DNA of 64,000 nucleotides from Odiellus spinosus (taxonomy: Eukaryota; Arthropoda; Arachnida; Opiliones; Phalangiidae), in contig OY987227.1 in NCBI GenBank assembly GCA_963920705.1, forward strand, positions 14,425,602 to 14,489,601. Reading direction: 5' to 3'. A program made the translations under genes and the position numbers. Within the stretch, counting starts at the first letter, position 1. Each line of letters opens with the position of its first letter. A model generated the notes under the pieces. That model did no database searches. It saw nothing but the letters and a program-made list of their open reading frames with translations, and had not been told where the DNA came from. Below are positions 4,205-61,426 of the stretch, one piece after another.

Positions 4205-7200
4205 TTTTTTCTTTGTATACTTCAGAGTACATGTACAGTTGCACTTTTGCTATATTATAGCGAAGCCAAAATAATTCTAATTTCATTACCCCTTTAAGAT
4301 AAAGTACCCTAGAAACTATAGATATGAATATGGTTTATTCTAGGGTCGAAGTAGAAGCGTAGAAAAAAGCTAAGCTTTTAGTACATGGGCTTAGATATCG
4401 TCGAATAGAGATTAATTGGCATATTTATCTTTATTTTACTTGCGTGTCCTTATAATATTGCTAATTAGGATATCAGGATCCCTTAGACTTTAATTGTAGT
4501 ATAATTTCTCAATTAAACCTAAAGTTTTGTCCCTGAAAAACGTAGCTATTCCAATTACTAGGTATATATCAACTTTCTTAAATGACACAATACTTTTGGT
4601 GGCGAAAATTCCACCCCAGTACGTTTTTATCACCGCCATTAATATTATTATTTCGTTTTTTCCCGCGGTTTGTGTATCGCGACATTTTTCAGTATGTACC
4701 TTGGTTCTAAAAGCAAAGTCCCAGCCTCTATTGATCGTTCGGCGTTCAATAAACATTACACCCGCCTTTGATTCAAGTTGTAGGTTGGATTGAAAAATGG
4801 TCATTGTATAGGCCTCGGCGTTCGCGGATCGGGCGTTGTCAATGTTTCCTATTATCCTAAGAGCTCCCTTGTTTTCTTATCCCCAACCACCCCGTACTTA
4901 TTTATCATTTTTTTCACTGAATCTAATAGTTTTTTTCGCGCCCTTTTTTCAAGTACGCCTCTACGTAAGGAGATTGAAGCTTAACCAATAGCGTAGCCGA
5001 TGAAATTTTAAACGATGCGTTTTAAGCCACGCGGATTTACTCTACCGTAGTTTTTCCCTCGCGGGATTTGCCTCGCCCCTAATGGTTAACTGACGAGCGT
5101 AACTCGGAAGTCAGACGTTGCTCTAATACTCCTACTAATACAGGCGTCGCTCGTTAGTTGTTACTTCAATTTTTAGGCTTAATGTTGGCCCTTTTTCCCG
5201 GGTTCTTTCGGGCTAAGTAAACTTTTTTGGGTAATTGGAAATTTAGAATGGTGCACTCTTATAGAGTTCATTAGAGCCCTGAGTTTTTAATTTTATTTTA
5301 AAGGGAAAGTTCTAGGAAAACTTTGCCTTTTTAACTGGGTATTGGTTTTAAGGTCAAAGGTCAAAAAAATTTAATAAATTCACTTTGCGCAATCAATGCA
5401 AGTTGCGAATTGTATTTAAATTTTTAATGTTTAAAATAATTCTCCCATAGAAATATCTTAATTGTAATTAATAATATTTTTCCAAAGTGACGTACTCGAA
5501 GTTTAGGACAATCGCTTTCTTTAGAACTAAAATAGTCCACCATTCTCTCCGATTCGTTGCCTGCTACGTGAAAATTTGGTTGTTTTTTGCGCGAAACTTT
5601 CCCCGAAGTTAGATCAAAGAATTCTTTATCGGTCTACGGGGTGTTAAGAGTGGGATTAAATTAGGCCTAATTCTTCTACGCGAGTAAAGGCGGCTTAGGG
5701 TATTTTCTGGCGGTTACCAAGGCGTAAGGTTTAAGGTTTTGGGCAACCTAGCTCGTTAAGAGAGATGGTAGAAACTTTGGCGTTGGGCGCAAATCCCCCT
5801 TTCCCCCGCTTATTTCTTCTTTCTTTTTTTGTCTTTAACCCCCGGAGAAGTTGCTCGTAACGACTTTCTTTCGCGCCAAAGATTTTTCTTAGCTCTTCTC
5901 ATTAACGTTTTCTGTAAAACGGGCATTTGCGGATTGGTGCTCGTGGTTCTCTACGTTGATATACCTTATTTGGGGGCTTCGGCTACCGATAAGGGAAAAA
6001 CACGGTGGGTATAAAAAGAAACAAGATCAGCCAGCCTTAGCTTAAAACCCCCTCATCCGAAACTGCGACGTTTAGATATAGCTCGACGTCCCTAGAGTTA
6101 ATTGAATCTCTCTTTACGCTTCATTAGAGAAAAATGTACTTAAAACCTTTGTTAATCCTATTTCTTGACTATAATTAACGCGATTTGTATGGATTAATTT
6201 GATCAAACTAGCGAGTACTTGATTGGCCCATGGTACTTGTAACCCGAACCTCGATCCGAAAATAATTTTATTTCGGTAAGATCTCACCACGATTGCGATG
6301 TATTTAGCAAATTGGTGTTTTTTTTTTCAAACTGCTTTGTTCAAGATTAATTGATCTAAAGAGAAAAGTTGAGGCGGATTGCTTCATAATGTTAAAACTC
6401 TTAAATAAAAAGTAGTCGCACCATCTCGAACCTGTAACATCTCTAACCATACTCTTGGAGTATTAATACCTACCCATATATTATTAAATCTAAATATAGT
6501 TATCCAGTTTTACCAACTTAATCATTCGTTAAAGTGAGAATGAATAGGAAATTTGAGTGATATTTTATAGATTCTGCTATTAAAAGAAAACCCACTTTTT
6601 ATCAGTAAAAATACCAATTTTTTGGCATAGTGTTAAGACTGCTCGAAATAAAGTGTTTTACCACCCTAACAGGTCTTATTTTTAGCAACAGAATCGTTAA
6701 TTTTTTTCCCTCCTTTTGGATATAATCATAAGTAAATTACTACCTCTAAGTAGGTGTATAATTAACCCGAATCTCCAGTTCGGTAGAAACACGGGCTACA
6801 TTATTGTATTGTCAAAACTCGATAGGGAAACTATAACGGCGCCTTACGGTCCAAAATACCATAATTTACTTATTCAGTTTAATAAACAAATCAATTTAAT
6901 CGAATCCAAACTACAATTTTCTTTTTGGGAATGATCCCCATAATAAGACACTAACCAGCTGAAAAACTTGAACAATATTGAAGTGACCCCTATAAATTTA
7001 TTACAATATTTAAATTAAACATTTTTTTTTATGAAGAACCCTTGCGAACCCGAAACCTTTTTTTCAGGTTTTAAAAAAAACTAAGTACTGGGATTTGGCT
7101 TTTCGCTTTCACCCTTCTTTCTCGTCAGACTCTTTTTCCTGGCAAACAGTAGCCAATGAAGCGACCAATCTCTTTCTCTCGCTCTCACCCTTACCCTCGC

Positions 7201-7840
7201 ACACGACTTAAACTGGCAGCTCCCTGTCCAAGTAAACCGCCATAAAGAGAACTTGTATATTTTTTTCTTTCCTCTTGCCCCTATCTTCTCCGAGCTCCAC
7301 TTTCTTTTGGCCCCACGTTCCGGGATCCCCGTGGCCATATATATGTATAGGTATGTTTGCTTACGTAATGTTGACTCTTCGTGCCTTCTAGCTTAGCCTA
7401 GCTACCAGAACCCTCGCCGCTCGTCTCCAACGGCGTTTTCCATTATACAACAAACCTCCGAAGAAGCTGTAGGTGGCGCGTTTCTTGTTTGACTACTACT
7501 ATAGTTCGTTCAATGGCTTTCAAGCGATAATATCGAAGGTGGGGACAACGAGGCATCGAGCAATTATTTCTTCTCGCCTGCCTATTTCTTCGTACCTTTC
7601 ACAATATTACCTCTAAGCCATTGGACGAGTTTTGGTCAGTGGGGAAGGATGAATCCCCCATAGGAAGGTTGCATATGACGTCATGATAGTCTTTCCCACG
7701 GCGTGAAGTGATGACCATGCTGGTAACGCCTCTATGAGGTGCTAACGTAATCTAAGTAGTCGCGAAACCTTCCACCGATTTCTTACGCCAGGTTTTGACC
7801 CAAGCCAAGGCTTAGTGGCTCCATTTTCAACGGAGAATCG
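4205..7840. other. AT-rich noncoding stretch
   Basis: No gene is recognised. Open frames of 61-104 codons overlap each other on opposite strands at about 4490-4804, with no domain. A minus-strand frame at 7081-7338 gives a very basic low-complexity peptide in pyrimidine-rich DNA. One copy of the GGCGGATT motif lies at 6371-6419 and is listed separately. Confidence 0.55.
6371..6419 (+). repeat. GGCGGATT short interspersed motif, copy 1
   Basis: The copy begins GAGGCGGATTGCTTCATAAT, continues GTTAAAAC and ends AAAAAGTAGTCGC. It is followed by CACCATCTCGAACCT, which resembles the sequence just after the copy at 61091 (CACCATTTTGAACCT). The repeat may therefore extend further in these two copies. 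Confidence 0.75.
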
Positions 7841-7904
7841 GAATAACGTATACAAAGTTGCGGCTTGTACTTGCCCCTAGGTCTTGGTCTAATCTCTTCG
7901 TGAA

Positions 7905-8215
7905 AAGAGCGGGAAACTGTATAGATCTGTGTAATGAAATGCCTATGGTATTCTTTTTATAGGATCCGGGGAGGTTTGACCAGATGCAATGCTAATATAG
8001 CGTAATTTGAATTGAATACGTTATGGTTGGTTCTTGTCTTTAGGCATTGTAGTAATACGTCTTCAGTATTTTTTATCGGGAAGTTTTACCAAATACAACG
8101 CTTTCGCGATATAATTTGAATGTTGGATAATGTTGCTTAGACTTAGGTTTAAGCCTGGATCCAATGTAACCAAGAAAAGCGCGGGAAACTAGATATACAC
8201 ATCTATATTAAGTTC
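7905..8215 (+). repeat. Diverged local duplication
   Basis: Two word pairs recur in the same orientation. GCGGGAAACT followed by a TATAGATCT-like block occurs at about 7909 and again at 8181. A block beginning GGAGGTTTGACCAGATGCAA at about 7972 resembles GGAAGTTTTACCAAATACAA at about 8082, both continuing to TAATTTGAAT. The spacing is about 110 bases for one pair and 270 for the other, so this is an old, rearranged tandem duplication rather than a clean array. Confidence 0.45.
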
Positions 8216-9590
8216 TTTTAGTGTTTTTCATCTTGAACCAATGTTTTGACCGTGTAATTTTAGGATGGTTACATTGTAGTTGCTTGGATTAATAAAGAAG
8301 CCTACTCTTCCCGGTTATATCACTCGTTATCATATATTTCACAAACAATCAAATTAAATCGCGAAGAAAATGTTTCTTGGTCAAATTTTCTAAACACTCA
8401 CCGCGGACACGAAGTAATAAACAAATCAAGCGACAAGATTGATACATTTAGGCGCGAGCTCTTTTAAAAAGCGGTAGCTTCTGTATTAATCCAAGATATA
8501 GCTGATATACTTAGCTTTATAGGCCTTGGTTTAATCTAACACTGAAATATTTTTTCCGAATCAATATTCATTCTCCTTCATCTCGGAGTACGGCACCCCC
8601 TCGATCTGTCGTGTCTCGCCCCATAAGAGTCCTAGTGGGGTTCCTATTTTTTACCCCCAAAACCATCCAATATTATTCCCCTTACTCCTTGGTTCTATCG
8701 TCCTTATTATTGGGTTAACCTGACAATAGGAGGAATACCACCAGCCACGCTATTGAAATATTTAAAAGCCCCCCCCCCCCTCCGCCAAATCCCCCTAATG
8801 TAGTCATTGTCGGCGCCTAGACGCCAAATACAAATATTTAGTCTGTACTCAGTTGACAGTTTTGGAAGTAACCTACATTTCAATAGAAAAACACGTTCGT
8901 TCAATGTAAAATTAGTATACCTAGATAATCTTCTAAGATTGCAAACTATAGTCTCTTGCAATTTAATACGCTAGCTATATAAGGGGAGCCTATAGTTACA
9001 CCCTTACTGAAATACAAACGTGGAACTGATTCTAATTATAGCGCAAACGAAATTGGGTGAATAGTTTTAATTGAATTAGCCTGTGGAATGTCTTATTTGT
9101 AGAACTATTGTAACGTTTAGATATACAATATGATTATATTGGTTTGTGGTTGTCATGAGAATATAATGATTTTTTTCTTTGTTTTATGGATGACGCCATA
9201 AAACGGATATAAATTTTGAAATTAGAACATTTTTTTAAGCGAAACACCAGGGGTTATTGTTAGATTAAAATTAATTTTCTTGTTACTTGAAGTGTTCCCT
9301 ACACTTTGAGAACATTTCCTTATTTTAAAATCATTTATTTACAACTCGGTTTAAATTTTGTAAGTTGATATAAAGATATTGAAGAGAAGTTAGGGAACAT
9401 TTTTCTCTCTCTCTCCCTGAAAAATTGGTAATTGCGTTTTGGTAATTTGAACATTTTCCAAACGATTCATTTTTGGCGCGAATTTAAAGAGGGACCCATC
9501 TAAATTTCCTATATATAGTTAAGGTTTACGACCAATTGATATTTTGGAGACTAAAGTAAACGCTTAAAATTCCTTAGCCTCGCTTAGTTC
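8216..9590. other. AT-rich noncoding stretch
   Basis: It holds a C12 tract at 8769-8780 and a short CT microsatellite near 9405-9416. No gene or RNA is seen. A minus-strand open frame at 8707-8961 crosses the C12 tract and has no recognisable domain. Confidence 0.55.
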
Positions 9591-9599
9591 GGAATGTCC

Positions 9600-10120
9600 A
9601 ACTTCCTCGTATTTACGTATTTCGACGAAGGCCGCGCGAAGAGAAACCAAAATATTTAGCTAGAAATAACGTTAGTATTAAAAGCGTCTCGCCCCTGCGT
9701 AGTTAGCTTCTCCTGGCTACCGCTAGAGGGTTCGATTGAAAAGCGTAGTTTTCCTATATCCGGATCGTGGGCTGGCCGGCGCGCGCCATCCGATCTCTCC
9801 GTTTTCCCGCGCGCGCGCTCTACTTCTCCCGCCTTTTTTTTCCCCGTCGCCGCCGCCGGTGTTTGCGCCTTCTCTCTCTTCGAGTTTCGGGCGAAAATCG
9901 GGCCAAAAGCGCGGGAACGATTCCGAGCGACGCGTTCCAAGGGCGATTAGCTTTCTCTCTCTGGCTTTGCGTCTCTCTTTCTCTCTCCGTTTCTCTCTTC
10001 CCCGGCGAAATCCGACGGAAAAGGGGTTGAACGAGATATTCTCCTTCGACCAAAAGCTCACCGACGCCGCGTCAGAGAACGTATCCCGTTCCCGTTACCG
10101 CGTGTGAGGTGCTCGCGATA
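9600..10120. promoter_or_regulatory. CpG-rich island, candidate promoter
   Basis: This is the most GC- and CpG-rich block of the window, with GCGCGCGC runs near 9780 and 9812 and a CGCCGCCGCCGG stretch at about 9847, inside otherwise AT-rich DNA. Overlapping frames stay open on both strands (up to 123 codons, 9736-10107) only because the block lacks AT-rich stop codons. The peptides are low-complexity Arg/Ser/Pro and no domain is seen. CG-containing words stay frequent to about 10560. In animals such islands often mark promoters and first untranslated exons. Direction and transcript cannot be determined here. Confidence 0.4.
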
Positions 10121-14225: not shown

Positions 14226-14227
14226 AT

Positions 14228-14313
14228 CTCTACAGCTGACCCCAAATATTTACAATTTGACCTTTCCAAAAAGGTTAAAACTGGTGTCAAAGTCTCTAGT
14301 GTGAGCTCGGCTT
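14228..14313 (+). mobile_element. Fragment of the 4026-4202 element family
   Basis: The segment shares the CAATTTGACCTTTCCAAAAA block and a right end TCAAAGTCTCTAGTGTGAGC with the element at 4026. The left terminus is missing or too diverged to see. It is a truncated non-autonomous copy. Confidence 0.6.
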
Positions 14314-21339: not shown

Positions 21340-21439
21340 TACCCACTGTAGTTTAATGAGATTTAACCTAGGTTAATTGTGATTAAACCTCATTTAAATC
21401 TGATTAAACCGGCTAGTTACGCTTCGTCTGAAAAGGGTA
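21340..21439. mobile_element. PIF/Harbinger-like MITE, copy 1 (internally deleted)
   Basis: The element starts TACCC and ends GAAAAGGGTA, with TAA on both sides (21337-21339 and 21440-21442). The right arm (GGCTAGTTACGCTTCGTCTG) aligns well with the copies at 39913 and 56986. Most of the left arm after TACCC is absent, so this copy is about 50 bp shorter. Confidence 0.7.
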
Positions 21440-21444
21440 TAACT

Positions 21445-24368: not shown

Positions 24369-24597
24369 ATTAGGCTTAACGATATTTGAAATTAGGCTTA
24401 ATGATATTTGAAATTAGGTTTAATGATATTTGAAATTAGGTTTAACGATATTTGAAATTAGGTTTAACGATATTTGAAATTAGGTTTAACGATATTTGAA
24501 ATTAGGTTTAACGATATTTGAAATTAGGTTTAACGATATTTGAAGTTATGCGCTTAACGATATTTGAAGTTATGCGCTTAACGATATTTGAAATTAC
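24369..24597 (+). repeat. 22-bp tandem repeat, 10 units
   Basis: The unit AGGTTTAACGATATTTGAAA plus TT is repeated. The GATATTTGAA block occurs at 24381, 24403, 24425, 24447, 24469, 24491, 24513, 24535, 24559 and 24583. The first seven steps are exactly 22 bases and the last two are 24, where the unit changes to a TTATGCGCTTAACG variant. Outer units carry AGGCTTAA instead of AGGTTTAA. The core units are nearly identical, so the array is recent or homogenised. Confidence 0.95.
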
Positions 24598-25499: not shown

Positions 25500-28400
25500 A
25501 ATTAAGCGGCTTGGAAAAATTATTTGACCAGAGGAAGGGACTTTTTATTATTGAATTGCTGCTCTTCTAATATCAAAATAGGACATTTAATTTTTTTTTC
25601 TGCCACCTTTAATTGTGGAATCGAGAATTCCGTAAAAGCCAGCATCGTTGATAGACTTTATCTTTAAAGGGATAAAGAGTTAAAGCGAATGGAGAAAGGG
25701 GGTTTGAATAGAGCGGAGAAGGTCAGTTGGAAACAGTTCGGAATCTATTATCCGGCGAATTATCTATCTCTATATATACACACACTCTCGCTCTCTATCT
25801 CTTAGGCGAGCGCGTTTCTCTCGCTACAACTTCTGCTAGCTGATCAGTGGAAGCTGACGCTTTCCAGCGATTGAACTATGGGCAATGTTTAGGCCTAATT
25901 CGAATATATACTCCCTTTCCCTCTTAAAACCCCCGCTACCCTCTTTCTCCTCCTTCTCGTTTCTCCCGCTTTATTGTCTCTCGCGCCATCAATTGGCAAG
26001 GATGCTGGAAGATGCCGCGAAAGAGAGTTATAAGACGACTTAAATCCCGCGTAGAGCCTTTCTGACTCGCCCGTTTCGCCACCAAACTTTCCCCTTTCGT
26101 CTATAAATGTATAATCCGTCCGTCCGTTTAGCTTCGATAGAATTCAAAGGCACGGAGAAGGATAGGCTCGTTATTACACTTATCCGTTTCTCCGATTCAC
26201 CCCGTCTTTCACTCTATCGCTTCTAAAACAATAGACGAACTAAACACGGCCAGTCAGATTCAATTTGAGATTCCATCAAGTACCAATGTTAGGCCTTGTT
26301 TTATCTTTACGATTTGATTTGTTAGAGATAAAGGTAAGCCTATAGGCTATTCCACCTCGATATATTAGCTTATAAAGGCTTACAATTTCTATAAACGGAT
26401 GGATATTGCTTTTGAATGTGCTCAAAATTAATTTTTATCGTACGTTTGACTAAGAAAAAAAAATTGTTTGCAAACTAATGGAATAAATCGATGGAGGATT
26501 AACACACAATCACAAATCATATTACGTGATATATAATTAACGTAATGCGTTTTTTGCGTAGTACGTGTACAATGATTTAAAGTGACTTCTTTTGAATTAA
26601 GTTTTTAAATGGATAGTACCACGCAATTTTTATTTTAATCTGTGTAGAACGATTCGAGTTTCAAGAAATTCTAGGCTTGTCCTACAAACTTTCATATAAT
26701 TTTACTCATTTGATGACACGTAAAAACTGGAAAATTCTAGTAAAAATTTAATTAATTGTGTGCTCATAATTTGAATAATATTTTCGTTATCCAGCCGCGT
26801 TAGATATGTTTTGACTAACAAGTTCGTACATTTCTCAAGATCCTTATGGTTGATTTCTAGTGAATATTTTTAGGAAACAACCAATTAGACTTTTGTCCAA
26901 TCTTCATGATTGGTTATTGCTTCATTTATATATATGCAAGCTTTAAAATTTGGTATCAATCCTATTCGTCTTTAGCCACGTCGCATTTTGACAATTCCTC
27001 TCGAAAAGAAGAATAGAAGATGGCATATCCTTGTACTTTATGAAACCTGGAACAGTTTCTCAACTATATATATGGGTCTTAATGTTCCCTCGTTTCGAAC
27101 GTTCTATGTATGTCATACGGTATATAGGAGGGAATAGAAATTGTCGCAATAATGTCAGGGGCATTAGTCGTCTCGCATCCGTCCATTATAGCGGAAATAA
27201 TTAGTAAGGAACACTAACGCGGGGGAACGTTGGGAGCTTTGGACTGTTTATCGGACCCCCCACCCCTCTGTTCGCTCGCTTTTATTTGGAAGCCGCGATC
27301 TACGTTCAATCTCCGCCCCGTCATCCTCTGAAACGCGGGCTTCATTGAGACAGGAGAAGAGTCATATTTGAGAGACGGGAAAATTGTTTAGGTTCGCGCG
27401 CTCGGAGGTGTATATCTATATAGGTTCTAGCGATTGAAACCAGCAGTCTCTTTACTAGTTCGATACCAAAATAACTTGACCCGCCCCTCCTCCTAATCAG
27501 ATATAGCTGCGGGCGAAATTGAGTCCCCAATCATTTATCCCCGCACCCCTTCTCGCGGTAACCGGCTAATTCGACATCTCATTTATCATTCTGATATTTT
27601 TTTTAATTTTAATTATATACAAAATGAAATACCATGGCGAAAAAAAAATCAACAACTCGCTAAACTTTGCATTTTAGATACCGCCCGGTAATTAGAGAGA
27701 TTTACGGTACGTCTAGTTACTCGTATCGCCAAATTTGGATGATGTATCTGTATTTTAAAATTTAAGAAGATATTGAGTTACGTTTCTGAGATAATGAGAT
27801 TTCTGTATATATGTCGTGCCGATCAATAATTCACTTTTGTTTGATTTTATTTTTAGGGAGTTATGTTGCTTAGTTATTGTAGGAGTTAATTAGAATGATG
27901 CCTGATAACGAGAGAATACTTCAATATCAGACTCGCTCAGTTAAGCCTAATCGATCCGAAGTTTCACCCTATAGTTTTTGTTAGAACAAATAATTTTATT
28001 AAGTTTATTATTCGACGTTTTACCTTAATCGATATTGGTGGTTTTTCCTCAAAGGTTTTTAATTTAGTTTTGGAAACAAAGAAGCTAAAGAAAAACTATC
28101 GTTGGTTTTTGTCTGTTTGTGTTCGTGTCGTTCGAGGGCGACGGTTTTTAATAGAGTTTTAGGGACTTTTGTCTTAATAAAACTAAGATCAATTTAAATT
28201 CCGATCACACACACGCGTTTCGTGCTTGCAGGCCTCCGCGCTCGCTATTATTTTGGTCTCGGCTATGATTAAGAAGAGCTAGGGGTAGAAACTCTAGAGA
28301 AGCTCAAGCTAGCCAGCTAACTCGCCATTAGACCGTGTAGTATTTAAAAGAACTCATTAGGGCCTCGCTTAACTGCCTGGAGAATATCGTGGCATTACTG

Positions 28401-28660: not shown

Positions 28661-28843
28661 AAATTTCGCCTAAATCAAGGGAATAAACTGCTTAGAAATA
28701 TTATTTTTACCTTAACCAACCAATTACTATTAATTTTGCATCTGAAGTAAATTATATTTGCTTTATTATAGAGTTAAAAAACTCTCGGCAATTTGAAGTA
28801 AATCAGTTTTAATTGGTTTTGAATTGAAACCTTTATCAAATAT

Positions 28844-29156
28844 CAAGAATCCATTCAGGTTCCATAAGAATATGGGAGGGCCGCGATTCAATAACCATCC
28901 TCCCAAACTTTGTTGCAAAAGTTCGTCTGCTTCGAACCGATTTTTCAAGTAAATCGCTCCTGACATTATATTATTAACCCGCGCCACTAACGACCTTGAC
29001 ATAATATTTTGGGTAATAAAAATGGAGCCGACCGAAAAAAGATCTAAGCGTACAAATGTTGCTTCGCAGACGAACTTTTGTTACGAAGTTTGGGAGGATA
29101 GTAACAGAGGCTAAAGCTATGCTCCCATATTCTTATGGAACCTGAATGGATTCTTG
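28844..29156 (-). mobile_element. 7-bp-TSD MITE family, copy 1 (313 bp)
   Basis: The outer inverted repeats are 34 bp and perfect, starting CAAGAATCCATTCAGGTTCC. Inside each is a second inverted block, CCTCCCAAACTTTGTTGCAA on the left, separated by unlike sequence. The flanks CAAATAT (28837-28843) and CAAATAA (29157-29163) form a 7-bp target duplication with one mismatch. Relative to the copy at 37401 it is inverted and about 96% identical by eye. A 78-codon frame (28766-29002) overlaps it but shows no transposase feature. A 7-8 bp duplication with CA...TG ends is compatible with P-like or hAT-like elements; the superfamily is not decided. Confidence 0.9.
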
Positions 29157-30679: not shown

Positions 30680-33350
30680 TCATAGAATTGAATCACAGAA
30701 CTTGGTATCCTATATGGCTATAGTGTTAGATCATGCCAAAGAAAAATATATATGGTATAGTTAATTGGTTAAGGAAAATTATCGAAGCGGGTCAGGGAAA
30801 ATCGTAATTTAAAATGGGGACATATCTTATATATTTTATACATATTTCACATGTAATCCCTTATTTATGAGCCATAATTAATATATTTATTGGAGGTTGC
30901 AATAAGGCAGTTTAAGCACTTGGAAACTTAATCTTTATTCAAATTAATGGTTAAGTCTAGTTACCAAATGCTCCCCCATTATAAAGAATTTCGAGTTTAA
31001 ATTTATGCATTTTTTTTATTTTTTTTGATATAAGTTGAAGGAAAAGGCAAGAAAAGTCCAAAAGTTTCTTTTCGAGAGATGATAATTTTTCTTATCTGGA
31101 TGGAAAAAAAAGTGGGTTCCATTTAAACCAAATATTTCTGATTCGATACGATCATACGGCTGACCTATTTCTTCCTAGCAATCTTCCTCAATCCCACTTC
31201 GTATCCTACCTCGTATTGGGCATAACCTTAAAATATAACCGAAAAATTTCAATATTTTCCGACTTTTTCCCCCCCTGCACTTCACGCTATACCGGTCTAT
31301 TACTCGAACGAAAACGATATATTTTACCAGTAGCCCCACTTCTACTAGAATTTCTCTCCTCTCTCTTTCACTCTCGATTCCACCCATAAAAATGACTCTA
31401 TCAATATATTTGGAAGCAATTTCTCCGAGGATAACTTAAAAGGACGGACGCGAGTCCTCGAAATCTGTTTGGGGGCGAAAATGGGTCGACCTCTATAATA
31501 TACTTTTGAAGTTACATTTACACGTTCATTTTGTTATGGCCTAGTTCGAATAGAATAATTTCGTGACGTCGTAATCTTGCCTTTTTAAAAGATGAATTTA
31601 ATATCGTAGATGTACATTCTATTCAACAGTTAACTTTCAAAGGCTCTATCTCGCCGAAACTCTAGTTGAGAAGCGAAATTTCCTACTTTTAACTTCTCAT
31701 AATTTTTGCCGCACCCCGTGTGAATATCCCTTCGCAAAATCTCATTCTCTTACGTTCGGTATCTTAACCTCACCCAATTTCATTTTTTGGACCAACCTAT
31801 AGGTAGGGGATGGTTCGCGAGGGTGGGGGGAGGTGATATTTCTGAGTAGCTTGATATCTGGGTGGATATTTTGAAGAGGTTAGGTGCCGAACGTCCCCCC
31901 TTTTAAACAAGGTACTTGGCAGTTTAAGGGCGGAAGAGTTATTGGCGAATAGGTTTAAAGTCAAAATGGAGCTCGCTGGTGTCAAATGGATCTATGCTAG
32001 GATAGCATCGCCGATATAAATGTCCCGGGTTCTCTCTACTTCAAGTACCGCCTCTCAACCATACTTCAAATTTCAATTCTCCCAAGTGACTTAAAAAAAC
32101 CTTACTTCAAATGAGGGAAGTAGTTTATCGAAGACTTTTTTTTTAAGTTAAAGGAATGGTTTAAAGTAAAAATATTCAAGATGACGCGAATAAATTTAAA
32201 TTTGGGTTCATTCTCGCGCTTGAAAATGAAAAATAAGTTTCACTTTTTGCTACGTGGAATGTTTAGGAATGTTCAAAAGATCTACTTTGAATTTTATTTG
32301 TTTATTTTACCTTGATTTCGGCTTCACGGTATAAGAGATGTTACTATGTTTAGCAAGCGATTATGTTAAATAAAAGTTTAGTGGATTAAATTATCTTCAT
32401 TAAGTGAAGGAAAACACCGTTTCGAACAATTGTAGTCGATTTCAATGGTAATTTTGTATAGAACTAAAACAAAGAGAAATTTCATCAATTGAATTATTAT
32501 ATTTTTACACGATTATTTAAAAGAAAAGTTATTTTTTTTAAAGTATGTCATTTTTGAAGGGTAATAGCTAGAAGTAATATATTTTGTAGAGCCAAGGGTT
32601 AAAAATCCATACTCAAAAGTTGCCGTCGAAAAAGATTTATGTCAACAAGTCATCTTCTTGAGTTACTTTTTAACATATTTGCTTTAAAATCCCATTTCAA
32701 AAAAAGTGTGCATTTTTCCAGACGACTATTGGTATTAAATATCTTATGCAAATTTGATATCTTGACGTTTTCGAGGGAAATAAAGGTTAAGATTAAGTTC
32801 CATCTTGAAATAAGTCTCCCCTACACTCCCCTAAAAATGTTAAAGTAAACTGAATCGACATTTTTTTTCTCTCTTTCTTTATCCTTTTTTTCTCGTTAAG
32901 GAAATTTGCCCGGGGCTTCAAATTTCTTATTATTATTATATATATAAGCTGTGTTGTTTTAGCAGTGGTACGGTCCACGTGATACGCGTATATAAATGTA
33001 TTGATTTATATCTAAATTAAGAAAGTAGTAAAAAAAAAAAACTGATTCTCGGGGGATCTCTCCAGCCCTGTAGCAAGGTTTTAAGTTTGCCGAAGAAATT
33101 TATTTTTTATATATAAAGCTGCCTTATTTGAAACCAAAATCTCTTCCACTTCATTTTCCAATACAATCTTGTTTAAAATATCATCTTAAAGGGAGGATAA
33201 AAATGAAAATCCAGTGAAGTTTTATCGATTCTAATATTAAAAATAAGGCATGTTTGCTTACCGTGTTCAAAATAAATCTTTCAATAAATGTTTCTAATTC
33301 AGAAAAGATTCAGATTTTTGTATTAATTCAATCTTAAGATGCCAAACCTT
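30680..33350. other. Noncoding stretch
   Basis: No gene is recognised. Frames of 61-76 codons on both strands lack domains. The DNA is AT-rich, with a G-rich patch at about 31820-31835. Confidence 0.5.
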
Positions 33351-37169: not shown

Positions 37170-37400
37170 AACTCATTTTATTTTTAAATTTAATTCTATT
37201 TATATGTATTATGTTGCAGAAATAATATTATTATATTTATCCTTTATTATGTAAATAAGATTTAAATTTTAATACTAAAGCTGCTCGTTGTGTTCAAGGG
37301 GGATTGAATAGGAATATATATTTTAATTTTCTACGCGCCTAAGCTTTTCCCATATTGCCACCTACTCTTTGAAATATATATTAAGTTAATATTATAATAA

Positions 37401-37717
37401 CAAGAATCCATTCAGGTTCCATAAGAATATGGGAGCATAGCTTTAGCCTCTGGTACCATCCTCCCAAACTTTGTAACAAAAGTTCGTCTGCAATTTTCGC
37501 AACATTTGTACGCTTAGATCTTTTTTCGGTCGGCTCCATTTTTATTACCCAAAATATTATGTCAAGGTCGTTAGTGGCGCTGGTTAATAATATAATGTCA
37601 GGAGCGATTTACTTGAAAAATCAATTCGAAGCAGACGAACTTTTGCTACAAAGTTTGGGAGGATGGTTATTGAAGCGCGGCCATCCCATATTCTTATGGA
37701 ACCTGAATGAATTCTTG
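37401..37717 (+). mobile_element. 7-bp-TSD MITE family, copy 2 (317 bp)
   Basis: It starts CAAGAATCCATTCAGGTTCC and ends GGAACCTGAATGAATTCTTG. A perfect 7-bp target duplication ATAATAA sits at 37394-37400 and 37718-37724. The central 87 bases differ from the inverted copy at 28844 at one position. A + frame from 37559 predicts a peptide very similar to that of copy 1 (MSRSLVA start), simply because the DNA is nearly identical. Two close copies with clean duplications suggest recent mobility driven by an unseen transposase. Confidence 0.92.
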
Positions 37718-37729
37718 ATAATAACAAAT

Positions 37730-39912: not shown

Positions 39913-40065
39913 TACCCTTTTCAGACGAGGGTAACTAGCCGGTTTAATCAGACTTAACCGTGGTTTAATCACGAATTAACCGAGGTTTATTGAAATGAGA
40001 AGGCCATGTAAACCTCGGTTATTCTGATTAAACCACGGCTAATTACGCCTCGTCTGAAGAGGGTA
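39913..40065. mobile_element. PIF/Harbinger-like MITE, copy 2 (intact, 153 bp)
   Basis: The left end TACCCTTTTCAGACGAGG and right end CCTCGTCTGAAGAGGGTA are inverted with one mismatch. TTA flanks both sides (39910-39912 and 40066-40068). Nested inverted words inside include ACCGAGGTTTA against TAAACCTCGGT. The TWA duplication is the hallmark of PIF/Harbinger insertion. The element is non-coding. Confidence 0.9.
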
Positions 40066-40082
40066 TTACACCAAAGTCAGGC

Positions 40083-40120: not shown

Positions 40121-40555
40121 TTAGTTTCGTTCGCCCCTATGCTATGGCTTCACTTTGTGGATTGAAACTGTACGTTTAAAGCATTTCTAAGGACTTAAAA
40201 AAGATAACGATTAAGTGGCATAGTTTTTTTACATTTCGTATGTGGCATAATATACATAAATTATAGACTATGCAATAATTATAATTAGGTTAATTCCTAC
40301 GACTCGTTTCTCTTCTTTTACAAAATTACCTTTCATAATAATGTGTGTTTTTCTTCACCTGAAGATATTTTTACTCATTAACTAAATTTGTTTAATTTAA
40401 CGCTTGTTAAATATCGCAAAAATAACTTAACCTCTATAAATCAAGGTAAAATTAATAATGGAAATTCAAACGCGAGCACTTCGAGTTTAATTTAGAGTAG
40501 CACCTTTGCAATAAAAAAATCGCGCTTTTATAATCATGTTAAAGGGGAGTTTGTA

Positions 40556-40607
40556 TTGACTACTTTTTCCCAATAAAGTTTAACATTGTGTATGAATTCG
40601 CTTCAGC
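40556..40607 (-). repeat. GGCGGATT short interspersed motif, copy 6
   Basis: On the minus strand it reads GCTGAAGCGAATTCATACAC, AATGTTAAAC, then GAAAAAGTAGTC. Beyond its 3' end (+ strand 40540-40555) lies TTAAAGGGGAGTTTGTA, which resembles a TTAA-type transposon terminus. Confidence 0.75.
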
Positions 40608-40609
40608 TT

Positions 40610-43254
40610 TAGTCGTTTTGATGAAGTCACGTTTAAAGTTTAGCCTTAATGTCGAACAGGCAGTTTGGAATTATAAATTTTGAATGAATTTACTGAATTA
40701 ATACGCGTTACTAATGATGTAAAACAGAACATTAGACGCTTTTTTGTTATTATATAATTATAAAAACATTTCATAATACCGTGAGTATCTTTATAATTAT
40801 GACATACTTCATCAAATAAATAATTATTTAAATACTAGCGGTATTATGAATTAAAAAAAGTAAAACTTATTGCTTAATAATTCGGCTTGAAAACAAGTGT
40901 CTCGCTTAAATTATATTCGTGTAAATCTCGATTATATATGCTATAAATCCCGACGCTTAGAAGGGGTTGGGTGTCGTCTAGACGTCTTCTAATAGAAAAC
41001 ACGAGGGCTTTTTGCGTGTAGATAGCTTATTATACGTACTAATACGTAGAGTTCTGGCGAAGGATTATCATTCATTACGCTCTTTTCCAATTCCCAACTT
41101 GCCTTTCCAAATAATCCTGGCACTGTCGAAACTTAAACCCTCGCCCGAGCGGGGGGAGAAGGTTAATTACGAGGGTAGTACGCGACTGCCACTAGGGGTC
41201 GTTGATATTTTAAGACCGTTGTCATCGTTTAAGCTGGTCCTCGGTTTTAGAAGTAAATAAAAGTATATAGCGTATGTATAAGAATTCTTACGTATATACA
41301 AGCCCTTCGGTCCTTTTTCTCGTGTAATTCCCCTTTCGACGAAGACCGTGAGACTAGATTATAGATTCCAAAAACCCCAACTTCCCAGCTTGTTAGTTTT
41401 CGATAAATCCTCCCTCTTTCCGACTTCCAAACGCGTTATCCCAGCAATTGCGACATTTTAACAAGATGAGCTAGAGGGCGAAAGATAGTTTCGCTTACGT
41501 CTTTTAAAGACGACAGGTTGAATAGATATCTCGCGCGAGACTAAAAATGTGAAAAGCTATTAGTAAAATTAAGGCCAATTTTTGATTTAATATTGTAGTT
41601 TGTAATATCAGAAATTATAATAGTGAAATATTGAAATACGAAATTTGGCAGGAGAGTTTTACAATACGCGTATCTCTTCAAAGCCCGTCTTCTGAACACA
41701 TTTGATTTTTTGAGTAAGAATACATAGCTCTGTTTAAATTGTAGAAGGACTTCATTTCCGCTAATATAACCACAAACGTGCTCAACGGACTGAAACATCG
41801 AGACCAATTTGGTGTTTGTAATTAAATAATCGCGCTCAACATAGTTTTGGACTATAATAACTTTTATTTAAGAAGAAACTTCACGTTAGTTTTAATTTAT
41901 TTTCCCTAATTTTAGGGACGCGCTCGACTCTTAAATGCTGAAAACCAACTCCTCGAGACTCAACTTTTTTTTATTTTTCCCCGCTTTCTTCATTTTCTAA
42001 CGTTCAATGTTTAATCTTTTTCTGCCCAATTTTACAACGCCTTTCTCCTATAATTTCAAAACCCGTTATTATTCTATTTTTACGCTTTTAACTGTCAGCG
42101 CAGCTCTCATAGGTTATATTTATCCCCCCTTGAGGTTCCCCCTCCTTCCCCTAATATTGTTACGCTCCTGCACAATTTCCTTTGAAGGGCTAATCCTACG
42201 TATTTATACATGCAAACATTCCTAGGCCTTGGATTATAATGGGAGAAAAATATTTTAGATTCCAAATTTTTACAAAACAAATTGAGAATTATTACCACTT
42301 TTTTAAATGGGTTAATGAAATTCAAATTTAATTCAAATTTCAACTTACACGTGTATTTGATTTAATAGGATATGAAAGGTTATATTTTTATAGTGTTATT
42401 GCGTTTCCGTTTTATCGAGGTCGAGGCTTAAAAAATCTAGTAAAAGCCTTAGGCGTCGAGAATTCTCGCGTTTTTAAAAGCATGGGACCGGGGCTACATC
42501 GGTGCTATTGTAAAGAAAGCTAGGGAACCAGGGGAAAAAGAGTGGAGTAGAGGAAAAGTGGTAAGTTGGGGAATGAAACTCTTTCCGGTATCGCCGATTC
42601 TCAATTATCACGCTCGGTTTGGTCTCATTCTACCCCTGATCCCTTGCCGACATCTTCCCTCTTCATCAGTAAAATTCCAGCGGAGTCTCTTTGTATCTGT
42701 GGAGCGCTGAAGCCTCGCTCAATTCAATCTTAAGCCCCATTCACGTTTCTAAACAAAACCGCTCCTTCGTCGCTAAATAATCTTAATTATTATTCAATAA
42801 AAATAGTTGGAATCACCGTGATATCTAAAATTACGTACGCCTATGATTTAAATTTATCGGTATTTCGTTTATTTAATGTTTATTTTGTAATGTAATGGCA
42901 ACATACCGTTGAAATTTAAAATTATTCGTATTTATTTAGTTTAGCTCTTTAAAATTAACAGGGGCGGTAGCTTGCAATATCAAAAAGCATTAAATGGCTC
43001 CAAAAATATAGAGATTAAAACAAATAAAGTCCAATCCTCAGAAGTTTGACCTAAAAACAGGAAAGGGTGTCAAGTAGCGAACATCTTTTGGTAACGCACG
43101 AAGAAGAAAGAATTGTTGGCCAAAAACAACGAAAGTATGAAACTTATTGAAAATCGCGTAACAGCCGAGTTTCGCCGTAAAATTCTAGATATCTCCGTAA
43201 CATAGTTAGAATTTTGGGCTGATTTGTTAACACCCTTGGATACGAAACCCCCCA

Positions 43255-51173: not shown

Positions 51174-51179
51174 TTTATC

Positions 51180-53215: not shown

Positions 53216-53216
53216 A

Positions 53217-53270
53217 ACTACTTTTATTCCCATCGTAGTTTAACATTGCGTATTAATCGGCATTACCTTT
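53217..53270 (-). repeat. GGCGGATT short interspersed motif, copy 9
   Basis: On the minus strand it reads TGCCGATTAATACGCAATGT, then TAAACTACGATGGGAATA and AAAGTAGTTT. Upstream on the + strand TTTGCAAAACTACTTTTATT matches the same position near the copy at 60459. Confidence 0.7.
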
Positions 53271-53274
53271 TGCT

Positions 53275-55010: not shown

Positions 55011-55015
55011 GAACC

Positions 55016-55240: not shown

Positions 55241-55244
55241 ATGC

Positions 55245-56015
55245 CTAAAATACTCCGTAACTTTTTAATCCACGCTCAATTTGGTGGGGATTGAAACCTA
55301 TTGAAAGGGGTGTATTATGATCTGACAGGGAGATTTTGAAACGTCGAAGGTTTCTGTCACCTAGTTGAGTGGTAACGTGACGTGAGCTAAAACTAATATG
55401 ATAGGTGTGGATATATATAGGGATTGTCCATCTTGTAAATATTCCAAGACGATAAATTACAGTAATTTTAGAAATTCGTAAGTCATATAAAACTCTTATT
55501 TCAATTACTAGTGCTCGTATCATTACAAAATACTCGAAACCATGGCATTATAGTCCTTCTCGAAACCCCATTTGTAAAAAAAGTCTCTTCTATTAAGATT
55601 TTGCAACGAATCTTCCGTTTTATAAATAAAGTAAATAAAATTATCCGCGTCTCTTTTTTGTCGGGGTGAAATAATATTAATATTGACAGGATTCTAGTAA
55701 CGAGACGGATCTTTTTCAAATATAGGCCTAATGCCAGACTTCGAGTATACTTCTAGATCGAAAAGAGATGATTTGAACGGTGCTAGTGGTGCAAATGGAA
55801 CTGCCGTAGAGTACCCCTGGGGATGTAAATAGTTCTAAAGCGCGTGAGGTGGAAAGAGCTAGGAAATGGTCCCAAGCAGAATCCTTTTCCTAATTGACAT
55901 CTGTAGCCGAGAAAATTTCTTTCATTTGGAAAAGTGGCTGGCGACGTCGACTCGAGAGTATACTCCTCATTCGATCGCGCCAAAGACTTTTCAAGAGCGT
56001 CTTGCAATATTGGAT
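55245..56015. other. Noncoding spacer
   Basis: Three minus-strand frames of 72-92 codons (55245-56007) have no recognisable domain and an AT-rich composition like the flanks. No supported gene. Confidence 0.45.
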
Positions 56016-56020
56016 AAAAC

Positions 56021-56070
56021 TGAGGCGGATTGATACGCGCTACGAAAAATCGTAGGCGAAAAAAAGTAGT
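56021..56070 (+). repeat. GGCGGATT short interspersed motif, copy 10
   Basis: The copy reads TGAGGCGGATTGATACGCGC, then a diverged middle ending in AAAAAAAGTAGTCG. Both conserved ends are well preserved. Confidence 0.75.
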
Positions 56071-56074
56071 CGTT

Positions 56075-56650
56075 GAAACTTCTCTGGAAGACTTGGTTTT
56101 CTTTCGGATTTTCTTTCTCCCATACCTTTCTGAATTCTTTTTTATTTTTCTCGCTATACCTCCATCTCAATCTAGTTCTTGCTTTTCGCCATTTTATCCG
56201 AGCTGCCGCTTCTCTCGCGACCTCTTGAGATTGACACGCGCCTCACTCCCTAAGTTTGAGCTGTCTTAATCGTATTCGATTGGCTTCGTGTTTGAGAGCG
56301 CATTCCCTATTCACCTATAGAGATCGAACTCTTATTGCCTCACTCAAAAAAATACTAAAAATAGTAGGAAAAAATAAACTCTTTCAATTGTCTTGTAAAG
56401 AAAGCCTTTTTTTATCGGATTATAAGTTAAAAACTGTTTCTATACTTATATATCAGTTAATTATATTTTAGTTATTAATAAATATGTGGTTTTAAATAAC
56501 GGGGAAAGATCAAGTCGTGATTCAAATTTTATTTAAATATATTTTGAACGCTTAATTGTCAAAAGTGGTGGATATTAATATGCCTAAAATATTATCAACG
56601 GTCGCAACAAAGGTTTCGTTGTAATTAGCGGTTAATTATCAAAGTAGAAA
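56075..56650. other. Noncoding spacer
   Basis: C/T-rich at first, AT-rich after 56340. Plus frames at 56030-56269 and 56256-56471 overlap each other and lack domains. Confidence 0.45.
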
Positions 56651-56654
56651 AAGT

Positions 56655-57178
56655 ATGCACTCGAAGCAATTACATATTTATCGTTTAAATAAGCATATTC
56701 CACCAGTAATTAAATTTAAAACTTACCCGTAAATTAGGCTTAGCCGAATTCACGGAGATCCTGAATTTCTTCGCATCGGAAGGTTCAGCGACAAATCGAA
56801 TACTTTTTGAAGTCTCATGGAGATCTCGCCTTAACAAAGGACTTCTGCTTATTAGTCGCAGACTAGTCAATTTTAATAAATTCAGAATTCATCTAAGCTT
56901 ATTTTCCGGGTAGTTTTAATTTCTTTCTAGTTTAATATTTGTTTGTAAGAAAATTAATGGTGGATTAGGCCTATTTAAACGATAATACCCTTTTCAGACG
57001 AGGCATAACTAGCCAGATATGGCCGAGGTTTAATGACAATTAACCCAGGGTTTATTGAACTGAGAAGGCTATGTAAACCTCGGTTAAATCTGATTAAACC
57101 ATGGCTAATTACCCCTCGTCTGAAGAGGGTATAAGGAATCGATAAAAAATTCACTTAATATTAGTTTGCATTCCCTCT
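56655..57178. mobile_element. TTAA-type MITE, copy 3, split by another MITE
   Basis: The right end GTTTGCATTCCCTC followed by TTAA (57179-57182) is a decayed version of the family terminus. TTAAATTTAAAACTTACCCG, GGCTTAGCCGAATTC, GGAGATCCTGAAT and GGATTAGGCCTATTTAAACG blocks all match the intact copy at 33359. The left terminus is diverged, so the start is approximate. The right arm is interrupted at 56986-57131 by a Harbinger-like MITE; removing it and one TAA restores the intact copy's order AAACGATAAGGAATCGATAA. Confidence 0.75.
56986..57131. mobile_element. PIF/Harbinger-like MITE, copy 3 (nested)
   Basis: It starts TACCCTTTTCAGACGAGG and ends CCTCGTCTGAAGAGGGTA, with TAA at 56983-56985 and 57132-57134. 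The unoccupied site is visible in the TTAA element at 33359 (AAACGATAAGGAATCG, one TAA), which proves both the boundaries and the 3-bp duplication. It is highly similar to the copy at 39913. Confidence 0.93.
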
Positions 57179-57189
57179 TTAATATAATT

Positions 57190-59265
57190 CTTACAGAGTT
57201 ATATTGTTCGATTTTTGACGTAATGAGTGTCATTTAGAAGCGGTCGTGAGACTGTATTCTATCTAGAATAAATCTCTTGTTGGCTAAAGACGTAGATATT
57301 TATGAGAATTGTCGATTAAAATTATTTATTTAAGTCAGTCAATTCCAGGAAATTCGATTATAGGGAGCGATATACGATATTTATGTCAATCTTATCTCTA
57401 AATATTATAAATGCTTTGAAACGATTATTAGCTTCATTCCTTAGTTAATACTTTAAGCGGATCAAAAATTTATCCGCTAGCAATTTTCTATATACGCTAT
57501 ACTAGATGGAGATTGAACGATATAATATTTCCTAATATCGATTTTAAAGGAGAGCGAGAGAGAGAGAAGGATATATAGATATCCATTGAACCGAAAGCGA
57601 TAATCGAACAGCTGCGAAGACTTTACTCCAATAGAATCTCGGAGAAACAGAGCTCGTTCCTTATTATATAACTCGGAAAAGAAAAATGGGCTAAAATTTA
57701 TTTTTTCTCCAAATATAATAAAGGAAATGAAAGTTAGCCCCCCCCCCCCCCATTGTTTTTATTTTCTTTATAGCTTTAGGAGAAAAGCGTGATCGAAATA
57801 TAGCAATAATAAGAAAATAAAAAAAAAAATGGAAATAAATTTTAATCTTTTTCATTCTATAAAATGATCTGCTTGGCTTGAAAAAAAAAACCTATGAGAA
57901 ATAAAAAAAAGGGCGGGTGAATGAGTATTTGACGCCGAATTAATGGAGGAAAAATAAAAAAAAGAAGAAACGAAACGTGGTGTAGAGGAAAACAGAAGAG
58001 GGAAGAGAGACGGAAGACTTAGAGCAAGCAGCCCTAGTTTTCGATGATTGTCCTTTTATGAGACGGCCTTATTTCCAGCCCTCTTTTATCCTCTATACTC
58101 CCCATAACCTCCCCCTACCATCTTCGGAAGCCAAAATTGGATGGCTTCTGTACTGATCGATAGGCGATAGCTGCCTTATCGATTCTTTAAAGGGTGGGTG
58201 TAAACTGCAATCAAAAACCTTTTTATTCAAAGGAATTAGCGACATGTTTTACGTATTGGTAATTTTCATAAAATATTTTTTTATGTTATAGATATACGTG
58301 TCTTGGTATTGCATCGAAGTCAGTAGCCAGAATGGGTTTCAATCAAATTATTTTAAATTTAAGCAATATGTCCTAGGAGCTACTTATTTTTTATTCATTT
58401 TAATAACTAGGATTAAGCGTTTAATCGCGTTTTGAATCAAAATTAAGGTAGATTCACATTGGTTTTGACGCAAAAACTAGATTCTTGGCCAAACAAATCA
58501 TGATCATCGGTTGATTCCGACTGCAAAGATATAGTTCAATCATTGGCAGTTATTCAAAAATTTTTGTTACATACGCAGGTTAAATTTCAACGAATCTGGC
58601 TTTGCATTTTTAATTCTATTGAAAATAATAATAATTTTCCCATTTCACTTTACCTTTAAATTATCCTCCTCCGTAACCTATTTGGGGGAGGGCGGGGGTG
58701 GTTCTATTCCTTTTGAAAACGAAGGCTCTCTTTTCTACGGGCCTTTCGTAAGGCACCCTTCCCTTCCCTTTCGCGAGGCTTAAGCCTTTTGGGCAGCTTA
58801 AGAATTTAATAAGTCGGCCTCTTTTAACGTCGCTTACCGACATAACGGCAGTTTCCAAATTAGTTTCCACCGAGTTTTAAACATTTCGTTTTGAAATGGA
58901 GGAATGGAAAAGGTCAGGAGAAGGGAAAGGGTGGAGTGGAATTTGAGCCAATAATTAGCTCGACTACCTGGGATTATTCCGCAGTCACGTACGGAAGTTA
59001 GGATATCTCCGGAAATAAGATTGCGTTCGCCGAATCTATTACGACTTCACGCTGTACATGAGCTTAGGAGGAACGAAAATAAGAAATACGCTCTCTCCCT
59101 CTCTCTCGCCAATTTGCGCTACGTGTTCTTGTAGCGTACCTAATAAACGTTTACGTGAAAGATGAGCTGAATCACGAAAAATATTTTTTTAATATAGATT
59201 CATTTGGTTAGAGGCTGCCAGACAAAAATTGGTTCCATAAATTATATCGTCATAGCGGCAAACAC
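57190..59265. other. Noncoding stretch
   Basis: It contains a (GA)n tract at about 57552-57567, a C14 run at 57738-57751 and A-rich DNA around 57810-57970. TTAAAGGGTGGGTGTAAACT at 58187 recalls a TTAA-type terminus without a partner. A minus frame at 58661-58870 has no domain. Confidence 0.5.
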
Positions 59266-59283
59266 GAACTTGTACTTGAACGT

Positions 59284-59705
59284 GATATGCCTTTGAACTT
59301 TGTAATCCTAGATGGTTCCCTCTTTAATTCAGAGAGTTAAAATTTAACGAAAGAACTAAATTATAATTTACATTATTCATACAAATCTCAGGGAAATAAA
59401 TTGAAGACTAAAATTTCAGGGAAATTTAAAATATTAGCGAAATTCACGGAAATCAGGAAAACTTGAGGTTTGGGCATATTGTGTCTAAATGGGTTGTTCC
59501 ATCAAATATTCTAAAAACCACTCTATTGTGTCCCAATGTTATTACTTCATTTTATTGACAGAAGTTTGTAATAGTTAAGGCGAGAAAAAGAAAAAATTAA
59601 AAGTGGATAGTTTGCGGTATTGAACCTGGATATTTCATGAAAATATTTGTGGAAAAACCTGTAAATTTCAGGGAAATCTGTATCCCTAATGTTGTATGAA
59701 CCCTG
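59284..59705 (-). mobile_element. 422-bp insertion flanked by 18-bp direct repeats
   Basis: The exact 18-base repeat GAACTTGTACTTGAACGT occurs at 59266-59283 and 59706-59723. The segment between ends, on the minus strand, with CAGGGTTCATACAACATTAG exactly at the repeat boundary, the same terminus as at 28585. Several CAGGGAAATTT-like words follow inside, and no long frame is present. An 18-bp duplication is longer than the 8 bp of hAT elements and more like a retroposon, so classification is open. Confidence 0.7.
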
Positions 59706-59729
59706 GAACTTGTACTTGAACGTATGGTG

Positions 59730-60455
59730 TACTTTTTACCGAACAAACCATTTACATTGTAAAAAGATGGTTATACGTCCAAGTAGAATTTGGATTTCTT
59801 GAACCGCCTGTTTTCAGTATTACCATTAAATAGGGTGTTACATTCTCAATTTCGAATCCTATTCTTTTATCCTCCTAGCGTTCCTTTATGCCCGTTCTCA
59901 ATATATCTTTCGATAGATTTTTTTTTTTCTTTTTCTTCTTCCTCTTCTTCTTTTTGCTCGGTACGTGATCGTACGAAGACTAGAGTTAGTCCGAAACTGT
60001 GTGACTATCTTCTTAAATTGAGCGTGTAATACGCTATTCGAGATCTTTATACCGCTTCGCCTTTCGTTTCGTTTCTTGACTCGATTTCGAGATATATTTA
60101 TATTCAGTCACCATCTTAGTAAGAACGAGAATGGCATAACAAAATTGAAGTTTTCAATGTGAAAATTTAATTTCTTTCAAGATTGCGAAACACTATGTAT
60201 TCGACTCTCTTTGCATTCACCCACATCTCTGATTCCTTTTTTTTTCCCCTACTTTTTCGGTAGTTCTTGTATTTGCATTCTACTTTTACTCTTTTAGGGT
60301 TTTTTTTCTATTCTTGAGTGTAGAGGAATATGTTGTCAAGAGAAGGAAACGGTTCGAAAGTGCGCCCCACTCTCTAGCCACTCCTTAGGGGCTATTTTTA
60401 AGTATTGACGCTATAGGGCCAAAGGGAGACTAAAAAAAAAGGTTATTTGTTTGCT
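59730..60455. other. Noncoding spacer
   Basis: Pyrimidine-rich around 59920-59960. A + frame at 59790-60029 is Phe/Ser-rich without domain. No gene is supported. Confidence 0.5.
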
Positions 60456-60458
60456 AAA

Positions 60459-60507
60459 CTATACTTTTATTATTTAAAAGGTTTAACATTGTGTATAAAT
60501 CCGCCTA
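60459..60507 (-). repeat. GGCGGATT short interspersed motif, copy 11
   Basis: On the minus strand it reads AGGCGGATTTATACACAATG, then TTAAACC and AATAAAAGTATAG. The 5' half is among the best matches to the consensus. Confidence 0.75.
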
Positions 60508-60509
60508 TG

Positions 60510-61005
60510 GTTTCGTAGTTTTTGGAACTGGTCTTTAAAGTAAACTATAAACGCTAACCTTTTATATTTTGTAAATAATCTTCACAATATTCACAACCTT
60601 GAATATATTTCAAGGTTATTGTAAATACTTTAATGGACCGATTTTTTGGGAGAAGGAAACCTTTTGAAGAAGCCAGGAGTGTGTTAGCCCCCTTTAAAAC
60701 TATATGTCTATCTACACATTACTTAAAAAAAATTGATATTTTTAAATGAAATGTAGAAGCAAATTAATTTAATAACTTAGTTTATTTTAATTTCAAGAGT
60801 AAAACGATAGGACGACTGTCTTAAAGTAGAATCTAAGAAGTCACAAAGACCTTATTTAACGGTGTTTAAAATTCGCGAATGTATTTAGGGCGAAACCTAA
60901 TTAATATATTTTTATGTTAAATTGTAATGATCACTTGGAGAATCATGAAAAGCTATGATTATAAATTCTGAGCGCTCTCCTAGTCTTACTATATTTTATA
61001 GATAT
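60510..61005. other. AT-rich noncoding spacer
   Basis: No gene is seen. AACCTTGAATATATTTCAAGGTT near 60595 forms a short perfect hairpin of unknown meaning. Confidence 0.5.
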
Positions 61006-61008
61006 GGT

Positions 61009-61426
61009 CAGAGGTATATAATAACCCCCTTCGGGGGGAAGTATGAAAGGTAGGCAAAATCGACGAACAACAAGTGCCCGGCGTAAATCGCGGCGGATCG
61101 ACACACCGCTTTACTCCCAAAAAATAGTTACACCATTTTGAACCTCACTAAATTTTCCCTACGCGCACTTCCGGAACTTGCGAGCTGAAGTCAACCTTCG
61201 ACTCCATTTTAACAGACAGCCTGACTCCTGAGACAGGAAGTTCTAAACACAAATCGAGCCGTCTTGTTTATACAAAGACCATTTACTAGAGTAGCGACAT
61301 TGAGAAGTCCAACGCGAGCTAGTGGCCTAGATAGTCAGCAGCGGGCTCTTGTTGTTCGTGATTTTTAGCATTAGTAGTATAGGGGCTTTCATACTTCCCC
61401 CCGAAGGGGGTTATTATATACCTCTG
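61009..61426. mobile_element. 418-bp MITE with 41-bp perfect TIRs
   Basis: The perfect inverted ends begin CAGAGGTATATAATAACCCC (61009-61049 and 61386-61426). A 7-bp target duplication ATATGGT lies at 61002-61008 and 61427-61433. Each terminus contains CCCCCTTCGGGGG, a perfect stem closed by a TTCG loop. Further in, ACGAACAACAAG (about 61063) is inverted against CTTGTTGTTCGT. CAGAG ends resemble hAT transposons, but 7 bp is one short of the usual 8. No protein is encoded. It carries a GGCGGATC motif inside. Confidence 0.92.
61091..61130 (+). repeat. GGCGGATT short interspersed motif, copy 12 (inside a MITE)
   Basis: CGGCGGATCGACACACCGCT is followed by CCAAAAAATAGTTACACC. It is diverged in the middle and lies inside the element at 61009, showing that the motif can travel with, or was captured by, a transposon. 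Confidence 0.55.

Follow-up and report, generated by a model that had tools for sequence, protein, structure and literature searches.

An old, abundant inverted-repeat element of about 118 bp in Odiellus spinosus, most likely a miniature inverted-repeat transposable element

Copies of the unit in the window

The window, the whole stretch of 64,000 nucleotides analysed here, corresponds to positions 14425602-14489601 of contig C3 (OY987227.1; assembly GCA_963920705.1) of the arachnid Odiellus spinosus, whose genome totals 443,074,358 bases in 286 contigs. Scattered through it are copies of a discrete repeat unit of about 118 bp with inverted-repeat ends. The family to which they belong is real, old and abundant, and most likely consists of miniature inverted-repeat transposable elements (MITEs). 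The unit is found in its own right (architecture A) and inside a longer repeat (architecture B). For the window, no closed stop-to-stop frames reaching 150 codons are listed. There is no CpG depletion: the observed/expected ratio is 1.21 across the window and lies within 0.83-1.43 for 19 of the 20 stretches sampled.

A sequence-only reading of the window had reported about 12 copies of a motif of about 50 bp, consisting of a core and a right block. The existence of this dispersed motif is confirmed. Its 20-base core, with up to three mismatches, has five matches in the window where 0.00 are expected (0/100 shuffles). The right block alone is weak, giving eight matches with at most one mismatch against 3.5 expected, a count that one of 100 shuffles reaches. 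A profile independent of the window, trained on 20 copies from elsewhere (loci L029-L048), finds 14 window places at E<=0.001, 11 of them among the 12 sites originally reported; on 264 kb of dinucleotide-shuffled control sequence the same profile tops out at 10.5 bits. Profiles trained on the reported copies themselves also recover those copies, which is circular. The count of about 12 gains three places, one of them weak, and loses site 61091, to which the window-independent profile gives no match even at E<=50.

The places are as follows, with bit scores from the window-independent profile except where another is named and with the originally reported site in brackets.

6324-6418, + strand: unit copy (6371), 40.0 bits
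11414-11517, + strand: unit copy (11431), 30.4 bits
20298-20403, + strand: unit copy (20331), 41.7 bits
20521-20610, + strand: weak unit copy (20520), 18.2 bits, core and right block read directly
26922-27025, - strand: extra unit copy, not previously listed, 20.9 bits
32282-32438, + strand: unit-free fragment similar to the right-hand B tail, 25.4 bits with a B profile and 51.0 bits with a tail profile
37336-37382, - strand: possible extra fragment, weak, not previously listed, 16.9 bits
39695-39756, - strand: weak unit copy (39682), 19.6 bits
40348-40637, - strand: architecture B copy with the unit at 40512-40620 (40556), unit 80.4 bits; the place is covered, as C3:14465949-14466238, by a genome alignment with the B copy L042
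46428-46542, + strand: extra unit copy, not previously listed, 20.2 bits
48168-48233, + strand: unit copy (48181), 47.8 bits
49415-49523, - strand: unit copy (49440), 55.6 bits
53207-53301, - strand: unit copy (53217), 42.5 bits
55988-56095, + strand: unit copy (56021), 47.9 bits
60478-60544, - strand: unit copy (60459), 30.7 bits

A genome search with window positions 56001-56120 returned nine matches, namely the query itself and eight others.

Extent and structure of the unit

The unit has a left end resembling TATACTYKTGTTCAAGAGNAGTTKGCAAA, continues into an interior with two conserved blocks, and closes with the reverse complement of its left end. These inverted ends resemble TATACTYKTGTTCAAGAG, and the left end of the consensus agrees with its reverse-complemented right end at 27 of 29 bases. 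The figure of about 50 bp was too small; inverted-repeat arms flank the two blocks, which make up the interior of the unit.

Searching the genome with a 108-nt consensus gave 1,982 first-look candidates. Scoring 40 of these yielded 45 matches, five of them from one tandem array, and 38 of the 45 span the consensus from base 12 or earlier to base 93 or later. The best-scoring match is 84% identical; the range among the 45 is 76-92%, the highest value belonging to a partial match. Locus L058 (C11:19369900-19371200) is a tandem array in which at least seven unit copies, with AT-rich spacer, recur with a period of about 155 bp.

Among 51 aligned copies of both architectures, conservation climbs weakly out of the background around TATACT at the left side and returns to it past GTATA at the right. 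One copy, L044, was searched together with its own flanks (320 nt) and matched 39 other places. On the right, 14 of the 39 matches stop precisely at the final A of GAGTATA (base 208), 18 end within 206-209 and two run beyond; on the left, seven start at 90-92 and two earlier. The limits of these alignments coincide with the inverted-repeat ends. Genome-wide search with a consensus and alignment of flanks, which the sequence-only reading had set as its check, thus leads to one extendable consensus with defined ends, in keeping with its suggestion of a small unclassified repeat. Its alternative of a transposon subterminal motif came near the mark, the motif forming the inside of an inverted-repeat element.

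When the arm pair was searched as an exact pattern, with the arms 58-86 bases apart, it occurred at 14 places in the genome and at none in the control. Sequence was printed for 12 of these places; by eye, eight contain the core and four a diverged interior resembling GCCAATTTCTACGC. Since the core or a variant of it is found between paired arms, arms and core form one unit. The four places with matching arms and a clearly diverged GCCAATTTCTACGC-like interior (C2:32252926, C11:2820275, C11:12102122 and C11:12317432) may represent a third subfamily.

Copy number and divergence

The core pattern (23 specified bases) occurs exactly 93 times in the genome and the arm pattern (15 specified bases) 249 times, against none for either pattern reversed. 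Both strings are spread over many contigs. Copy number was estimated from 20 stretches of 10 kb spaced along contigs C1-C3. The 13 copies found there correspond to 65 per Mb, which extrapolates to about 29,000 genome-wide (Poisson interval 15,335-49,248). The 14 copies in the window exceed the 4.2 expected from this sample (P 1e-4), the window having been chosen for this motif. Divergence from the consensus is 26.0% in the window (the 12 of 14 copies with at least 60 aligned bases) and 27.1% for 12 of the 13 sample copies. Per-base retention calculated from the exact strings comes to about 0.78 (core) and 0.70 (arms), figures which assume 29,000 units with two arms each and ignore subfamilies. 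The base following GGCGGATT varies, being G, A or T among the listed places and C in one, which points to several source lineages.

A second architecture containing the unit

Copies with TGAAGCGAATTG...CTTCATTGGG have additional common sequence on both sides, comprising TATA-rich DNA, GTCT repeats and GTCGGTCGGGAACGCTAAAG on the left and an AT-rich tail on the right. This architecture B is a few hundred bp long and contains the whole unit with recognisable arms. Genome searches with two B queries gave 488 and 1241 first-look candidates, of which 40 were scored per query. With query L064, 21 of 40 other matches begin at bases 54-55, an edge that the GTCT repeats may shape; with query L042 the matches occupy bases ~143-436, and only L042 itself extends past 436. 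By eye, two B copies agree up to ACTAATTAA. No inverted repeat was seen at the provisional ends of B. Pieces of its tail lacking the unit occur three times in the sequence examined (window 32282-32438, L024:2811-3023 and L009:2188-2346). Upstream of its B copy, L042 has sequence that is matched by tandem repeats of ~58 bp at C11:14007632-14008383.

In the simplest history, a mutated unit would have joined B and then spread inside it. The opposite order, in which B is the original element and A a shortened derivative or merely the best-kept stretch of B, is not favoured, and we regard it as quite improbable. B does contain the entire unit and is common, as the candidate counts show. Against its priority, the flanked A copy L044 aligns with other copies only up to about the inverted ends, and the left part of the 51 aligned copies is mostly like TTCAAGAG and not like the B head.

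Nature of the element

On balance, the unit is probably an extinct, short, non-coding inverted-repeat element of MITE type, represented by architecture A, which may have targeted TA and would partly have spread by hitch-hiking. It carries terminal inverted repeats, as judged from the consensus, the coincident alignment ends and the arm-pair search. At ~118 bp it is non-coding and below the size needed to encode a transposase, and it is dispersed at high copy number, both in the sampled stretches and as exact strings on many contigs. The following course of events would account for these features. A transposase encoded elsewhere in the genome would most likely have recognised the inverted ends and spread the unit, with TATAC...GTATA ends fitting a TA target. 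Several source lineages would have produced many insertions, now decayed to about 26% divergence, and one mutated copy may have been incorporated into B and respread with it.

The unit resembles the MITEs of TA-targeting transposons (Tc1/mariner and relatives) in being short, non-coding, bounded by terminal inverted repeats, high in copy number and TA-compatible at its ends. It differs from them in having no known autonomous partner, no demonstrated target duplication, and an interior better kept than the ends. MER6/MER6A, described as a mammalian MITE carrying the V conserved domain of short interspersed nuclear elements (SINEs), with 865 bp and 24-bp terminal inverted repeats for MER6, is likewise an inverted-repeat element and has in its interior a segment that another kind of repeat carries too (PMC6887750). 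Our unit, at ~118 bp, is unlike it in size and in that its interior matches no domain tested, a comparison that did not take in the V-domain sequence. Searches for relatives elsewhere gave nothing: the exact degenerate core pattern has no matches in viral contigs or in prokaryotic genome contigs, megablast of window positions 1-25000 against phages returned none, and a search of open papers for the motif strings turned up no evident repeat paper.

Several observations sit less comfortably with a MITE. The left end of the unit is less sharply kept than the right, and B has spread without an A-type left end. Column identity across 47 copies is 0.87 in the core and 0.86 in the right block compared with 0.77 and 0.78 in the arms; in the 21 copies from the window and the sample the values are 0.81 and 0.84 compared with 0.66 and 0.76. 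MITEs do not usually keep their interior better than their arms, and the excess of core over arm identity arises in part because the copies were located through the core. Target duplications, scanned at 1,120 combinations of end position and length (lengths 2, 4, 6, 8 and 9), gave a best z of 3.5 and no coherent position, and a TA duplication is inseparable from the TATAC...GTATA of the element itself. Close to the ends, exact 6-8 bp matches are in mild excess, at 10 of 51 for own flanks against 5.3 by swapping. In six comparisons of own with swapped flanks, 145, 276, 470, 1032, 1494 and 2553 of 5,000 swaps were as good, the copies being old. No autonomous partner is known here, and a transposase gene bearing these ends was not searched for.

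The better-kept interior and its presence in two architectures bring to mind a SINE-like superfamily moved by long interspersed nuclear elements. In such a superfamily the interior would be a conserved SINE-type domain, joined to varied heads (that of A, or the GTCT-repeat head of B) and to an AT-rich tail, and in the element's RNA the A inverted repeat would form the closing stem. CORE, V and Deu are named as highly conserved domains of SINEs in PMC6887750. Elements with such domains share with our unit one conserved central segment with differing flanking modules. The same interior is indeed joined to two distinct left parts, with a longer tail in some cases and none in others, the three tail-like fragments stand without the unit, and the consensus RNA folds better than shuffled sequence (z -4.97). 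We nevertheless consider a SINE-like origin unlikely. A small-RNA head (tRNA, 5S, 7SL or other) did not emerge: no tRNA-like gene and no Rfam family at gathering score is present in the window, and no convincing Rfam match was obtained in 17 loci. An A-box-like TGGCATAATGG is visible in some copies by eye only, no scan for RNA polymerase III boxes having been made. The right end of A is GTATA, with no simple tail; B does have an AT-rich tail, which also exists alone. Target duplications of about 7-20 bp are not clear, and the arms do not stay paired. The sequence-only reading's suggestion of a SINE core is accordingly unsupported in these tests. The Rfam scan of the 17 loci gave 18 hits at E<=10, which we judge to be chance; the one that overlaps a copy (L041:1487-1533, SNORD75) scores 18.3 bits, far below the gathering score of 50.

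That the copies are dispersed genes for a structured RNA or ribozyme, with pairing still under selection, is very improbable: pairing changes in a 29-copy alignment do exceed those of column shuffles (0/500 reach four of five measures and 7/500 the fifth) and the fold z is as given above, but RNAalifold finds no pairs in that alignment, subfamilies can account for its covariation, pairing along the arms stays close to chance level apart from a slight excess in each of three columns, and the 35 strongest column couplings listed include no arm pair. A copy's own arms are no better paired than swapped ones, 2238 of 20,000 permutations being as good with 33 copies and 2272 of 20,000 with 51. On the arm-swap and column-coupling tests we reject an RNA gene or ribozyme despite the positive covariation. 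Since the arms decay independently, a conserved RNA stem is unsupported; such independent mutation is as expected for dead DNA copies, which the MITE-like element would now be.

Neighbouring repeats

Site 61091 had been described as a copy inside a transposon with terminal inverted repeats; the window-independent profile did not re-find it as a copy. The site lies within a young inverted-repeat element of 420 bp (61008-61427), with perfect 42-bp ends starting TCAGAGGTATATAATAACCCCC. The direct repeat TATGG flanks it (61003-61007 and 61428-61432), and copies of about 97% identity are present in L016 and L033.

Other repeats in the window are a ~320-bp pair in opposite orientation (28841-29156 and 37401-37720), 97% alike and with inverted ends of its own; a family with CCGAGGTTTAATC-like inverted segments (21379-21440, 39928-40066 and 57014-57132); 10.2 tandem copies of the 22-bp unit ATTAGGTTTAACGATATTTGAA (24369-24596); and a 68 bp direct repeat pair, 90% identical (4128-4195 and 14237-14304). 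Among the sampled stretches, L028 (C3:29000001-29010000) has a CpG observed/expected ratio of 0.08, unlike the other 19, and is perhaps a satellite near the contig end.

Significance

Host uptake or selection has been proposed for the conserved domains of SINEs. It is conceivable, if doubtful, that the interior of our unit (GCTGAGGCGGATTNATACACAATGTTAAA ... AAAAAGTAGTC) is likewise an undescribed conserved domain, common to an inverted-repeat element and to a second, different element, and kept by selection on the elements or by host uptake, such as in the role of a protein-binding site or a regulatory one. The present description sets bounds to an abundant short repeat that would otherwise be left in the unclassified fraction of the genome. 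It also supplies a case, open to testing, in which the ends of an inverted-repeat element are less well kept than its interior and the element was respread within another repeat; beyond that case, the family is ordinary fossil mobile DNA.

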